Shown here piece after piece: positions 26,476 to 30,813 of a stretch of DNA of 42,046 nt. Within the stretch, counting starts at the first letter, position 1. Each line of letters begins with the position of its first letter. Origin of the DNA: Actinomycetes bacterium (lineage in GTDB: Bacteria; Actinomycetota; Acidimicrobiia; Acidimicrobiales; Palsa-688); contig JAKCDU010000028.1 of NCBI GenBank assembly GCA_021838445.1, positions 1 to 42,046 on the forward strand, written 5' to 3'. A program made the position numbers and the translations under genes. The notes beneath the pieces were generated by a model, which was not told the DNA's origin, did not search any database, and was given only the letters and a program-made list of their open reading frames with translations.

Positions 26476-26601
26476 CATCCGGCTCACACAGCCACTCCGG
26501 CCCACACAGCCAGTCCAACCCACACGACCAGCCCGGCCCATGCGACCAGCCCGGCCCATGCGACCGGCCCGGCCCATACGATCAGCCCGACTCATACGAT
26601 C
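26476..26601. repeat. Seven tandem 18-bp repeats between two genes
   Basis: Units start at 26476, 26494, 26512, 26530, 26548, 26566 and 26584. Units 4 and 5 (26530, 26548) are identical (AGCCCGGCCCATGCGACC); the others vary at several positions, with a stepwise drift toward both ends. The array fills the gap between the unknown gene and the acyl-CoA synthetase and covers the last codons of the unknown gene. There are no spacers, so it is a minisatellite, not CRISPR. Confidence 0.9.
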
Positions 26602-27101
26602 AGATAGTCCTTCCAGCGGCCGGTCGCCTCGCGGGCCTGGGCCGGGGTCAACTTGAGGGCATCGACTTTCACCGCGTCGACGATCTCCCGCTGATCCCAG
26701 TAGTGCTCGGCCGCCCCGCGGAACAGCGGGCCCCGCCACTCGATCAGCTCGGCCGGCGCCCCCCCGAGATAACCCCACAGGCCGAAAGCCCACTCCATGT
26801 CGTAGATGACCGGAGCCCGCCCGAAATGGGCCGCTCTCCGGCTGCCACACCCGAAGCCCCCCGCCACCACGTCCTCGACGTGCTCGCCGGGGGCCAGCTC
26901 CAGACGCTTCTCCATGCGGCGGGCCAGCTTCAGCCCGTAGCCCAGGTCGGGACCGGTGGAGCCGAAGCGGGGCCCGGTGGGCGGCTCCAGGTCGGTCTGC
27001 TCGCCGGGACGGTCCAGCACCCACCGTCCGGGCGCCGGGAGGAGCGACGAGGGACGGATCCGGTCGGTGTCGGCGTGGGGTACCTGCGCGGGCTGGGTCA
27101 T
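26592..27101 (-). CDS. Hypothetical protein coupled to cimA, 169 aa
   Basis: The ATG overlaps the cimA stop as ATGA (27101-27098), so it belongs to the leuB-ilvE-cimA operon. The protein is soluble and rich in Trp, Gly and Arg. Recognisable stretches are VVAGGFGCGSRRAAHFGRAP, YDMEWAFGLWGYLGGAPAEL and HYWDQREIVDAVKVDALKLT near the C terminus. Cys in GFGCGSRR may be functional. I do not recognise the family. Its place suggests a role tied to isoleucine/leucine synthesis or use, but this is inference. Confidence 0.7.
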   Translation of the reverse strand: MTQPAQVPHADTDRIRPSSLLPAPGRWVLDRPGEQTDLEPPTGPRFGSTGPDLGYGLKLARRMEKRLELAPGEHVEDVVAGGFGCGSRRAAHFGRAPVIYDMEWAFGLWGYLGGAPAELIEWRGPLFRGAAEHYWDQREIVDAVKVDALKLTPAQAREATGRWKDYLIV

Positions 27102-28735
27102 CGCAGGGAAGTCTGGTGGTCGGCCCCCAGGTGGAGCAACCCGAACACGACGGAGTCCTCGAGCGCCGACCACGACGCTTCGATGACGTTCTCCGACACC
27201 CCGATGGTGGTCCACGTCCGATCACCGTCGCTGGAGTCGATGAGTACCCGGGTCACCGCCCCGGTCCCCCGGGAGGTGTCGAGCACCCTCACCTTGAAGT
27301 CGGTCAGATGGACCTGGGCGAGCTGCGGGTACACCGGACCGACCGCCTGCCGCAGGGCCGCATCGAGCGCGTTGACCGGGCCGTTGCCCTCGGCGGTGGC
27401 GATCACCCGGTCGTCGCCGACGATGACCTTCACCGTGGCCTCGGTGACGAAGCTGCCGTCCTCGCGCAACTCGGTGATGACCCGGTGGGACTCCAAGCTG
27501 AAGAAGCCCTGCTTCCAGCCGGTCGCCGCCCTCATCAGCAGCTCGAGCGATCCGTCCGCCACCTCGAAGTGGTAACCCCGGTGCTCGAGCTCCTTGAGAC
27601 GCTCGACCACCGCCGCCATGGCCGCGTCGTCCATGGCCAGACCGACCTGCTCGGCCTTCAAGGCAATGGTCGACCGGCCGGCCATCTCGCTCACCACGAA
27701 CCGGGTCCCGTTCCCCACCGAGTCGGGCTCGACGTGCTCGTAGGCCTGCCGGGAGCGGGCGATGGCGCTCGTATGGAGGCCCGCCTTGTGGGCGAAGGCC
27801 GACTGGCCGACGAAGGGCTGATGGGCGTCGGGGGCCACGTTGACCAGCTCGGCGATGTGGTGGGCGACGGGCGTGAGGAGCCGGATGCGCTCCCGCTCGA
27901 TGGTGCGCACCCCCATCTTCAACGTCAGATCGGGGATGGCCGAGGTCAGGTCGGCGTTACCGGTGCGCTCGCCGTAACCGTTGACACAACCCTGGACCTG
28001 CGTGGCTCCCATGCGCACCGCGGCGAGCGAGTTGGCCACGGCGCAGCCCGAGTCGTTGTGGAAATGGCCCCCGACGCCGATACCGGTGTTGAACCGATCG
28101 CGAACCTGGCCCACCACCCGCTCCACCTCGAAAGGCAGGCTCCCCCCGTTGGTGTCGCAGAGCACCAGGACCTCGGCCCCCGCGTCGGCCGCGGCGCCCA
28201 GCACGTCGGTACTGAACCCGGGGTTCTGGCCGAAGCCGTCGAAGAAGTGCTCGGCGTCGAGGAACACCCGCTTGCCCTGCCCGACCAGGAACCCGACCGA
28301 GTCGGCCACCATGTCGACGGCCTCGGTGAGCGTCGTGCGCAACGTCTCGGTCACGTGCCACTCCGCCGACTTGGCGACCAGGCACACCACCGACGTCTGC
28401 GCCGCCAGCATGTCGGCCAGGACCGGGTCGGTCTCAGCCCGGCCCCCGGCCTTGCGGGTCGATCCGAAGGCGACCAGGGTGGCCCGGTGGAGATGCAGGT
28501 CCCCCGCCGCGGCCCGCCGGAAGAACTCGGCGTCCTTGGGGTTGGCGCCCGGCCAGCCGCCCTCGATGTACTGGACGCCAAGGTGGTCGAGCTGCTCGGC
28601 TACCCGCAGCTTGTCGTCGACGGTGAGCGACAGTCCCTCCTGCTGGCTGCCGTCGCGCAGGGTCGTGTCGTAGATGTCGACCGCGTCGGGGATCCGGGCG
28701 CTCTCCAGCTCGGCGTGGGCGTGGTCACCCGACAT
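27098..28735 (-). CDS. cimA: (R)-citramalate synthase
   Basis: CimA condenses pyruvate with acetyl-CoA to citramalate, starting the threonine-independent isoleucine pathway. The 545-aa product has the DRE-TIM motif YDTTLRDGSQQEG, GHFHNDSGCAVANSL (metal His pair), CVNGYGERTGNADL, and a C-terminal regulatory domain of about 130 residues. Length and motifs fit the long actinobacterial CimA rather than LeuA (2-isopropylmalate synthase), though only assay could exclude a LeuA-like specificity. Its start overlaps the ilvE end by 11 bases. Confidence 0.93.
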   Translation of the reverse strand: MSGDHAHAELESARIPDAVDIYDTTLRDGSQQEGLSLTVDDKLRVAEQLDHLGVQYIEGGWPGANPKDAEFFRRAAAGDLHLHRATLVAFGSTRKAGGRAETDPVLADMLAAQTSVVCLVAKSAEWHVTETLRTTLTEAVDMVADSVGFLVGQGKRVFLDAEHFFDGFGQNPGFSTDVLGAAADAGAEVLVLCDTNGGSLPFEVERVVGQVRDRFNTGIGVGGHFHNDSGCAVANSLAAVRMGATQVQGCVNGYGERTGNADLTSAIPDLTLKMGVRTIERERIRLLTPVAHHIAELVNVAPDAHQPFVGQSAFAHKAGLHTSAIARSRQAYEHVEPDSVGNGTRFVVSEMAGRSTIALKAEQVGLAMDDAAMAAVVERLKELEHRGYHFEVADGSLELLMRAATGWKQGFFSLESHRVITELREDGSFVTEATVKVIVGDDRVIATAEGNGPVNALDAALRQAVGPVYPQLAQVHLTDFKVRVLDTSRGTGAVTRVLIDSSDGDRTWTTIGVSENVIEASWSALEDSVVFGLLHLGADHQTSLR

Positions 28736-29648
28736 GTTCCACCCAGTCCTTGTACCGGTCCACCTGGCCGCGCACCGCAGCGTGGTAGAGCTCCTGGACC
28801 CGACGGGTGATCGGCCCGGGCCGGCCGTCGCCCACCACCCGGTCGTCGACGGAGGCGATGGGCACCACCTCGGCCGCGGTGCCCGTGAGGAAGGCCTCCT
28901 CGCAGGTGTACAGGTCGGAGCGCAGGATGTTGCCGAACTCCACCTCGTAGCCGAGATCCCGGGCGATGGTGATCACCGAGTCCTGGGTGATGCCCTCGAG
29001 CGCGCCGGCCGCCAACGGCGGCGTGACGATCCGCCCGCGGCGCACGACGAACAGGTTCTCTCCGGTGCACTCGCTGACGTAACCCTGGGGTGAGAGCAGT
29101 ATGGCCTCGTCGTAGCCGGCCTTGAGCGCCTCGATCTTGGCCATCGACGAGTTGATGTACATGCCCGTCCCCTTGGCCGCCGGGGGCATGGCATTGGGGT
29201 CGTGACGCTGCCAGGAGCTGATCTTCATCCTCACCCCGTTGGCCACGCCCTCGTCACCTAGGTAGGCGCCCCACGGCCACACGGCGATGGCCACATTGAC
29301 CGGGCAGGGCAGAGGATTGAGTCCCATCTCGCCGTAGCCGAGGTAGACGATGGGTCGGATGTAGCACTGATCCAAGCCGTTGACCCGCACCGTGGTCTTG
29401 GTCGCTTCGACGATCTGGTCGGCCCCGAAGGGTACGTCGATCATGAAGATCTTGGCCGAGTTGAACAGGCGGGTGATGTGGTCGGTGAGGCGGAACACCG
29501 CCGGCCCCGCCTCGGTGGGATAGGCCCGGATTCCCTCGAAGACCCCGCAGCCGTAGTGCAGGGTGTGGGTGAGGATGTGGATGCGGGCGGACTCCCAGTC
29601 GACCAGCTCCCCGTCCATCCAGATCTTCTCGGTGGGGGTGATGGGCAT
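28725..29648 (-). CDS. ilvE: Branched-chain amino acid aminotransferase
   Basis: IlvE is a fold-type IV PLP enzyme that makes the last step to leucine, isoleucine and valine. The 307-aa product has HTLHYGCGVFEGIRAY at the N terminus, catalytic Lys in YINSSMAKIEALKAGYDEA, and SECTGENLFVV and GTAAEVVPI for PLP and substrate binding. Start ATG 29648 lies 4 bases after the leuB stop, so it is in one operon with leuB. GAGAAG just upstream and AAAGGG are possible ribosome-binding sites. Confidence 0.96.
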   Translation of the reverse strand: MPITPTEKIWMDGELVDWESARIHILTHTLHYGCGVFEGIRAYPTEAGPAVFRLTDHITRLFNSAKIFMIDVPFGADQIVEATKTTVRVNGLDQCYIRPIVYLGYGEMGLNPLPCPVNVAIAVWPWGAYLGDEGVANGVRMKISSWQRHDPNAMPPAAKGTGMYINSSMAKIEALKAGYDEAILLSPQGYVSECTGENLFVVRRGRIVTPPLAAGALEGITQDSVITIARDLGYEVEFGNILRSDLYTCEEAFLTGTAAEVVPIASVDDRVVGDGRPGPITRRVQELYHAAVRGQVDRYKDWVEHVG

Positions 29649-29652
29649 CTTC

Positions 29653-30654
29653 TCAGACCCTTTCTGCGACGGCGTCGCCGCTTTGACTGGTGGAACTGCC
29701 GGCGGTCGGGGTGAACCCGGCGACCGCCTTGCGGATACGAGCGGCCGCGTCGCTGGACCCGAGGAAGTCGAGCATCATCGCCGCCGAAATTATGGCGGCG
29801 GTGGGATCAGCGCGCCCGGTTCCGGCAATGTCGGGGGCCGAGCCGTGGACCGGTTCGAACATGGAGGGCGCGGTCCGCTCGGGATTGATGTTGCCCGACG
29901 CAGCGCGGCCGATCCCGCCGGCGATGGCCCCGCCGAGGTCGGTGAGGATGTCTCCGAAGAGATTGTCGGTGACCACCACGTCGTAGCGGTCCGGGCGTTC
30001 CATGAAGTGGATGCAGGCCGCGTCGATGTGGTTGTACCAGGTCTCGACATCGGGGTACTCGGCGGCCACCAGATCGAAGGTCCGCTGCCACAGGTCCCCG
30101 GAGAAGGTGAGCACGTTGGTCTTGTGCACCAGCGTCAGGTGCCTCCGGGTCCGGCTCTGGGCCAGCTCGAAGGCGTAACGGATGCAGCGCTCCACCCCGA
30201 AGCGGGTGTTGACCGAGCCCTGGGTGGCGATCTCCTGGGCCGTCCCCTTGCGCAGGAAGCCACCCTCGCCGGCGTAAGTGCCCTCGGTGTTCTCCCGGAT
30301 CACCTGGAAGTCGATGGGGACACCGGCCCCGAGGCTGGCCGGGGAGCTGAACGGACGCAGGTTGATGTACTGGTCGAGCTCGAAGCGCATCTTGAGCAGC
30401 AGGCCCCGCTCGAGTACCCCGGGCGGCACCTCCGGGGTCCCTATGGCTCCGAGCAGAATGGCGTCGAAGCGGCGCAGCTCGTCGAGCACCGAGTCGGGCA
30501 GCACCTCTCCGGTGGCCAGGTAGCGTCGCCCGCCGAGGTCGTAGTCGGCGGTGTCGAGGTCGGCGCCGGCCGCCCTCGCCACCTTGAGGGCCTCGGCGAT
30601 CACCTCGGAGCCGATGCCGTCACCGGCGATAACTGCGATCTTGTGGTTGCTCAA
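29653..30654 (-). CDS. leuB: 3-isopropylmalate dehydrogenase
   Basis: LeuB oxidises and decarboxylates 3-isopropylmalate with NAD in leucine synthesis, and homologous steps serve isoleucine synthesis from citramalate. The product (333 aa) has [13 protein letters not shown], the substrate Arg region [45 protein letters not shown] and [14 protein letters not shown] chose the TTG at 30654: AGGAG lies 9 bases upstream and the N terminus then matches the family length. A GTG at 30723 would extend it through two hairpins and looks wrong. A leader with an attenuator-like structure precedes it. Confidence 0.93.
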
Positions 30655-30678
30655 AGCAGGCAGCTCCTGAAATGAAAT

Positions 30679-30702
30679 GACCGCCCCCTCCCGGGGACGG
30701 CC
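30679..30702 (-). promoter_or_regulatory. Second hairpin in the leuB leader
   Basis: In the RNA, arms of 10 bases (30702-30693 and 30688-30679) pair with two G-U wobbles around a GGGA loop. It stands between the terminator-like hairpin and the leuB ribosome-binding site (30668-30664). Confidence 0.5.
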
Positions 30703-30706
30703 AGAA

Positions 30707-30732
30707 AGCGCATCGGTGGACACCGATGCGCT
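30707..30732 (-). terminator. 12-bp perfect hairpin after the leader ORF, attenuator candidate
   Basis: AGCGCATCGGTG and CACCGATGCGCT (minus strand) pair perfectly with a 2-base spacer and are followed by TTTCT. The 5' arm overlaps the last bases of the leader-ORF stop codon. An upstream segment (30773-30764, CACCGGAGCG) can pair with the 5' arm (30730-30721) at 9 of 10 positions, giving a mutually exclusive alternative. Confidence 0.65.
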
Positions 30733-30778
30733 AGTCCATAATTACGGTTCCGGCGACGTGCACCGCTCCGGTGATCAC
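30731..30778 (-). CDS. Putative leader peptide of the leuB-ilvE-cimA operon, 15 aa
   Basis: GTG 30778 to TAG 30731 encodes [15 protein letters not shown]. Five of 14 codons after the start are Val or Ile (ATC, GTG, GTC, GTA, ATT). The adjacent GTA-ATT pair uses A/T-ending codons that are rare in this GC-rich sequence, a mark of attenuation leader peptides. A TACACT -10 box ends 6 bases before the GTG, the same leaderless layout seen at other genes here. The stop codon abuts a 12-bp hairpin. Starved ribosomes pausing at GTA-ATT would hide the hairpin's 5' arm and allow readthrough into leuB. Supported by layout only. Confidence 0.65.
30761..30773 (-). promoter_or_regulatory. Short hairpin within the leader ORF
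   Basis: CACCG-GAG-CGGTG in the RNA, within codons 2-6 of the leader peptide. Its 5' part is the segment that can also pair with the 5' arm of the downstream terminator-like hairpin. Confidence 0.45.
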
Positions 30779-30784
30779 GGGGCC

Positions 30785-30813
30785 AGTGTATCCGCCGGTA
30801 GCCTCTGATGGAA
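30785..30813 (-). promoter_or_regulatory. Promoter of the leuB leader (TTCCAT, 17 bp, TACACT)
   Basis: On the minus strand TTCCAT (30813-30808) and TACACT (30790-30785) are 17 bases apart. The greA -10 box (TAGCCT, 30799-30804) lies between them on the other strand, so the two promoters overlap and should compete. Confidence 0.45.
30799..30804 (+). promoter_or_regulatory. Putative -10 box of greA (TAGCCT)
   Basis: TAGCCT ends 10 bases before the ATG at 30815. It overlaps the oppositely directed leuB leader promoter. Confidence 0.4.

Follow-up and report, generated by a model that had tools for sequence, protein, structure and literature searches.

The window, by which we mean the whole 42,046-nucleotide stretch of DNA analyzed, carries leuB, ilvE and cimA on its reverse strand, preceded by a leader from which greA is divergent (Table 1). 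The leader ORF reads GTG ATC ACC GGA GCG GTG CAC GTC GCC GGA ACC GTA ATT ATG GAC TAG, and leuB begins with a TTG codon at 30654 of the reverse strand. The sequence-only reading of this DNA had placed a TACACT box 6 nt ahead of a 15-codon ORF containing five Val/Ile codons, among them an adjacent GTA-ATT; both points were confirmed, with the coordinates lying on the reverse strand and the start codon not counted among the five. The second hairpin (T) and the leuB ribosome-binding site were also found after the first hairpin (H1) as described (30703-30678, and AGGAG from 30668). The account of H1 itself needed correction: its two 12-nt arms do match perfectly as inverted repeats, yet the 4-nt loop leaves room for only 11 pairs, and the stem does not abut the stop codon, since it contains two bases of TAG and hence overlaps it.

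Table 1. Features of the leuB-ilvE-cimA leader and operon (window positions)
Feature	Position	Strand	Remark
-10 box TACACT	30785..30790	-	ends 6 nt 5' of leader GTG
Leader ORF GTG...TAG, 15 codons	30731..30778	-	TAG at 30733-30731
Control codons GTA-ATT (codons -4, -3)	30740..30745	-	
Hairpin H1, 11 bp, 4-nt loop	30707..30732	-	stem begins in stop codon
Hairpin T, predicted intrinsic terminator	30678..30703	-	terminator-like in consensus scan; 99% cells paired
T-rich tail of T, TTTCATTTC	30669..30677	-	
leuB ribosome-binding site AGGAG	30664..30668	-	
leuB, 3-isopropylmalate dehydrogenase	29653..30654	-	NF002898 508 bits (cut-off 393)
ilvE, branched-chain aminotransferase	28725..29648	-	TIGR01122 above cut-off
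cimA, (R)-citramalate synthase	27098..28735	-	TIGR00977 643 bits (cut-off 450)

Adjoining cimA, a 207-aa ORF (window 26592-27215, reverse strand) had no Pfam or NCBIfam match. Proteins sharing its core (..GPDQGYALKLA..) come after cimA at four other loci (L147, L149, L153 and L155), and judging from this arrangement the ORF appears to be a conserved citramalate-operon gene without known function.

The 22 close leuB orthologs for which upstream DNA was available belong to the source family and were taken without preselection for a leader; all of them carried its parts, namely a short ORF ending in Val/Ile codons, H1 and T, and in each of them the 5' arm of H1 began at the stop codon. The typical ORF end in this set was ATC GTA ATT ATC GTG TAG, and much of the variation consisted of synonymous changes or exchanges among Val, Ile and Leu. 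The leader also stood above chance in folding (z -3.1). R1, a covariance model based on 28 leuB leaders, matched 214 of 298 genomes of the order (E<=0.01) and 154 of 296 genomes of the class (E<=0.001), while a sample drawn across the phylum gave matches in just 5 genomes outside the class. Named relatives carrying the leader were Acidimicrobiia, including Ilumatobacteraceae and Microthrixaceae MAGs. Aligning the leader in relatives, the check suggested along with the sequence-only reading, found the short ORF, its Val/Ile codons and covarying stems all conserved, and on this comparative evidence the leader is real and conserved. Several contigs titled as 'Bifidobacterium breve' MAGs (L031, L034, L038 and L060) contained acidimicrobial-like leuB regions with 67-72% LeuB identity; L038 also carries the attenuator, and these record titles look wrong.

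The source genome holds a second R1 match (G000:C108:84644-84724, 46.6 bits) at the head of an ilvB-ilvN-ilvC operon, where the ORF ends ...CTC GTA GTA ATC ACC TGA, encoding LVVIT before the stop. Pairs of a leuB-type and an ilvB-type copy occur in many relatives. Because the arm of T differs by target, being of the CCGTCC type before leuB and mostly of the CCTCCC type before ilvB, the two copies give the impression, as far as sequence can tell, of ancient paralogs that have each been maintained on their own. The leader studied here lies upstream of leuB, not ilvB, and is a sister of the ilvB leaders rather than one of them.

Both types differed markedly in their control codons. Ile occupied codon -2 in 63 of 64 leuB-type versus 11 of 24 ilvB-type leaders, and Leu was present at codons -6 to -2 in 6 of 64 versus 23 of 24 (Fisher p 1e-14), counts that are somewhat inflated because the leaders beyond the first 22 were gathered by a model containing the codon columns. 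Variation at the control codons of leuB-type leaders stays within Val/Ile; at codon -2 the source species carries ATG, as against ATC in its two congeners. Sites that sense ribosome stalling are expected to use rare codons, and in the leuB-type control region GTA made up 54% of the Val codons (3% in the window genes) and ATT 37% of the Ile codons (5% in the window genes). The control codons thus appear, from codon content, to follow the product of the target operon, with Val/Ile in leuB-type and Leu/Val/Ile in ilvB-type leaders. Around the stop codon, which was TAG in 87 of 94 leaders, the base on the 3' side was C in 83 of 94; this C is partly imposed by H1 and could also be a context able to slow termination.

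The MAFFT alignment (A1) misaligned H1 in divergent members, and the model-based alignments A2 and A3 were used. In A2, compensatory double changes were present at 11 of 11 pairs of H1 and 6 of 10 pairs of T across 80 leaders, with 150 double-change cells versus 33.5 in shuffled data and at most 42 in sliding controls, values to be read with the fact that A2 and A3 were fitted to the model and lean somewhat toward its structure. Together with its T-rich tail, T was among the most conserved parts of the 80 leaders, and it was the only terminator-like site in the region in the consensus scan. H1 was tried as the terminator and rejected, as it has no conserved T run behind it and the terminator scan picks T; the earlier assignment of the terminator to the hairpin at the stop codon accordingly gives way to the second hairpin, which has the conserved T tail. 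The two helices share no bases and are separated by a short spacer, and the leuB ribosome-binding site lies outside both, only ~10 nt after T. A U-G wobble in the T stem (A2 columns 59 and 78) was kept in 70 of 80 leuB-type terminators, with U-A and C-G also occurring, and may tune terminator strength.

A mutual-information scan of the 80 leaders for a further helix returned only isolated pairs, so that no third helix covaries. The best alternative pairing, between the 3' arm of H1 and the 5' arm of T, was not better than swapped arms (permutation p 0.18). The sequence-only reading had instead paired an upstream segment (30773-30764) with the 5' arm of H1; the 9 of 10 match, including one G-U, does exist in the source genome, but the pairing is not conserved beyond the genus level. 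Over 93 leaders pairing of this type scored 6.05 of 10 versus 6.17 in shuffled sequence, leaders of 10-12 codons offer it hardly any space, and on these comparisons it is a genus-level coincidence. H1 occupies the place of known antiterminators, yet it does not overlap T. Since no conserved mutually exclusive antiterminator was found, a role of H1 in attenuation is one that we infer.

Among the 65 leaders with one possible start codon, which form the promoter-spacing set, a -10 motif of the form nAnnnT mostly ended 6-9 nt ahead of that codon, and T-rich sequence ~38 nt upstream was consistent with a TTGAC-like -35. Shine-Dalgarno-like (SD-like) motifs before the leader ORF were at chance level in the same set (14 versus 12 expected). 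Because of this spacing and the chance level of SD motifs, the transcription start is probably the leader start codon itself or a position no more than about 3 nt away, and the leader peptide is probably translated from a leaderless transcript. Such a template had been called unusual, a view that the literature on Actinobacteria overturns: in S. lividans leuL1, leuL2, ilvL and trpL are leaderless, as are most of the leader peptides described there (PMC8079986), and the ilvL start codon of C. glutamicum is a single nucleotide away from the transcription start (PMC11857589).

Taken together, the leader is very probably a ribosome-mediated transcription attenuator of leuB-ilvE-cimA tuned to Val/Ile, and conservation, codon choice and covariation support the earlier proposal of a leader-peptide attenuator with Val/Ile codons. 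RNA polymerase would start at or a few bases from the leader GTG, and a ribosome would load on the RNA end and translate about 15 codons. With ample Val/Ile it would reach the stop codon in the base of H1 and hold H1 open, T would form and transcription would end before leuB. With charged Val/Ile tRNA in short supply, the ribosome would stall on the rare codons GTA-ATT(-ATC), H1 would form ahead of it and the polymerase would read through T. Comparison of sequences shows the conserved parts, the choice of codons, helices H1 and T and the geometry; that starvation turns the genes on is what we infer from homology to ilvB attenuators that have been tested. In M. tuberculosis, changing LVVI to AAAA in the ilvB1 leader abolishes induction, removal of the terminator relieves the effect, and the proposed logic is that a stall on LVVI leads to readthrough and completion to termination (PMC13236596). 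Points that count against an attenuator include the classical antiterminator that was not seen, the S. coelicolor ilvB leader, where changes to candidate control codons were without effect (reported in PMC1262725), and the source copy itself, with ATG at codon -2 and a tail of T (TTTCATTTC) weaker than the GTTTTGTGTC of relatives.

When RNA was masked by the ribosome up to 13 nt from the A-site, the predicted energy of H1 was -20 kcal/mol with the A-site at codon -5 or -4, -14 at -3, -6.6 at -2 and -1.8 kcal/mol at the stop codon. On these values a ribosome completing the peptide would hold H1 open and one stalled early would let it form. The sign of the response is blurred because a ribosome stalled at codon -2, where leuB-type leaders are most conserved, would already sit on half of H1. 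As a rival, H1 might be an anti-antiterminator that promotes termination, with a ribosome stalled at -3 to -1 or lingering at the stop covering its 5' arm, freeing its 3' arm for the 5' arm of T and so causing readthrough. In favor of this arrangement, placing the A-site at -2, a codon that is almost always Ile, is predicted to cost H1 about two thirds of its stability, a weak alternative hairpin (-3 to -11 kcal/mol) is present in every leader, and C. glutamicum ilvBNC has a hairpin called antiantiterminator (PMC11857589). However, the alternative hairpin does not outperform swapped or shuffled arms and shows no covariation, and stalls at the first control codons (-5/-4) leave H1 intact, so that we regard an anti-antiterminator as rather unlikely.

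An action of the upstream ORF and hairpins on translation of leuB or on RNA stability, instead of transcription termination, is less probable still and in our estimate improbable. It would agree with the ribosome-binding site lying so close behind T in the source and with cimA leaders in another actinobacterial group that combine an ORF containing an Ile run with an H1-like hairpin but lack a T-rich terminator; in the 80 leaders, however, T and its tail are highly conserved and the ribosome-binding site stays outside both hairpins. The reading of the hairpins as a common terminator pair, or as inverted repeats that arose by chance, beside an untranslated ORF can practically be dismissed: taken singly, a 15-codon ORF is no surprise in GC-rich DNA and about one chance match to the T motif is expected in the window, but the codon pattern, rare codons and compensatory changes are conserved across the class and, because greA is divergent, there is no upstream gene for a terminator to serve.

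In other actinobacteria and in Ilumatobacteraceae, R1 matches were located directly before cimA and not leuB. The peptides encoded there, given up to the stop codon, included IIIIR, IIIIS and IIIIP (Ilumatobacteraceae and related MAGs), LVIIGWRAGD (Actinomadura), LLIIGRRAG (Acrocarpospora, Herbidospora and Nonomuraea), VIIP (Kribbella), LIIGT (Phytohabitans) and SIIIDRRAGH (Aeromicrobium), and the cimA leaders of Streptomyces, found by reading upstream, end in MIIGSRRAGPQ and similar. In several genomes where cimA closely follows ilvE no leader of its own was seen before it, and a strict ORF-plus-terminator test was passed by none of 40 high-scoring cimA genes sampled from further groups of the phylum, so that not every cimA there has such a leader. 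The cimA leaders of one of these actinobacterial groups (L321, L333, L334, L340 and L346 of family f129, and L342) have runs of II/III codons and a strong H1-like hairpin around the stop codon without a T-rich terminator, and these are possibly a translational or Rho-type version. Because Ile-rich leaders precede cimA elsewhere in actinobacteria, the leuB leader belongs to a group of leaders, tuned to Ile, that guard the citramalate route. More doubtful, and put forward tentatively, is an unreported isoleucine attenuator family (IVII and IIII directly before the stop, LLII, MII) that is widespread in citramalate operons of Actinomycetota and acts by adjacency of hairpin and terminator alone, without a mutually exclusive antiterminator, the hairpin being opened by a ribosome on arrival at the stop codon.

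The mechanism is of the known actinobacterial ilvB kind. With the ilvB attenuator (PMC1262725, PMC8079986, PMC13236596) the leuB leader shares a leader ORF with branched-chain codons near its end, a stop-codon hairpin and an adjacent terminator, and in Streptomyces and Corynebacterium the ilvB leader ORF has little or no untranslated RNA ahead of it; the leuB leader differs, beyond the arm of T, in preceding leuB-ilvE-cimA and in having Val/Ile with almost no Leu. By eye, the ilvB leaders of Streptomyces, Jiangella and Mycobacterium seem to follow the same plan with the stop placed elsewhere relative to the hairpin. The ilvBNC or ilvB-II leader of C. glutamicum (PMC11857589, PMC10272879) features the transcription start one nucleotide from the start codon and translation-affected hairpins upstream of T; its terminator was tested by mutation, and its antiterminator and terminator share a few bases, whereas H1 and T share none. 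The LEU element before leuA (PMC1262725) is likewise an actinobacterial leader ORF ahead of a leucine-pathway gene, but it has a run of Leu codons pairing with the leuA SD and a pseudoknot, whereas the leuB leader contains no Leu codon, its predicted hairpins exclude the SD and it has a terminator. The actinobacterial attenuators named in the publications consulted cover trp, ilvB, leuA, leuS, cys, trpS, thrS, alaS and metN, and the Rfam 15 covariance models (T-box, riboswitches, any family) gave no match at gathering score in the leader, the best weak match being Atu_C8 (25.8 bits versus 50 needed). Judged by title, an open-access literature collection contained no relevant report of citramalate attenuation or a citramalate leader peptide, the one paper combining citramalate with leader peptide concerning valine production in Methanothermobacter; nor did it contain a paper on leader-peptide attenuation in acidimicrobial bacteria. 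Within that collection, what appears new is the citramalate operon as target, the class, and codon sets matched to the product, and the target, rightly singled out as unusual at the outset, holds across the class. Classical enterobacterial trp/ilv attenuators carry their control codons a few codons before the stop and the position of the ribosome chooses the hairpin; compared with them, the leuB leader showed no conserved overlapping antiterminator and an SD is probably absent.

An attenuator at this operon would add the citramalate (threonine-independent) route to isoleucine to the pathways attenuated through leader peptides, and would do so in a mostly uncultured class. Strong conservation of H1 without overlap with T makes the question of how such attenuators antiterminate directly testable. 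The paralogous leaders within one genome constitute a natural experiment in which the same RNA plan carries product-matched codons, Leu/Val/Ile for ilvBNC, Val/Ile for leuB-ilvE-cimA and runs of Ile for cimA alone, and the cimA leaders are potential isoleucine control points for metabolic engineering.
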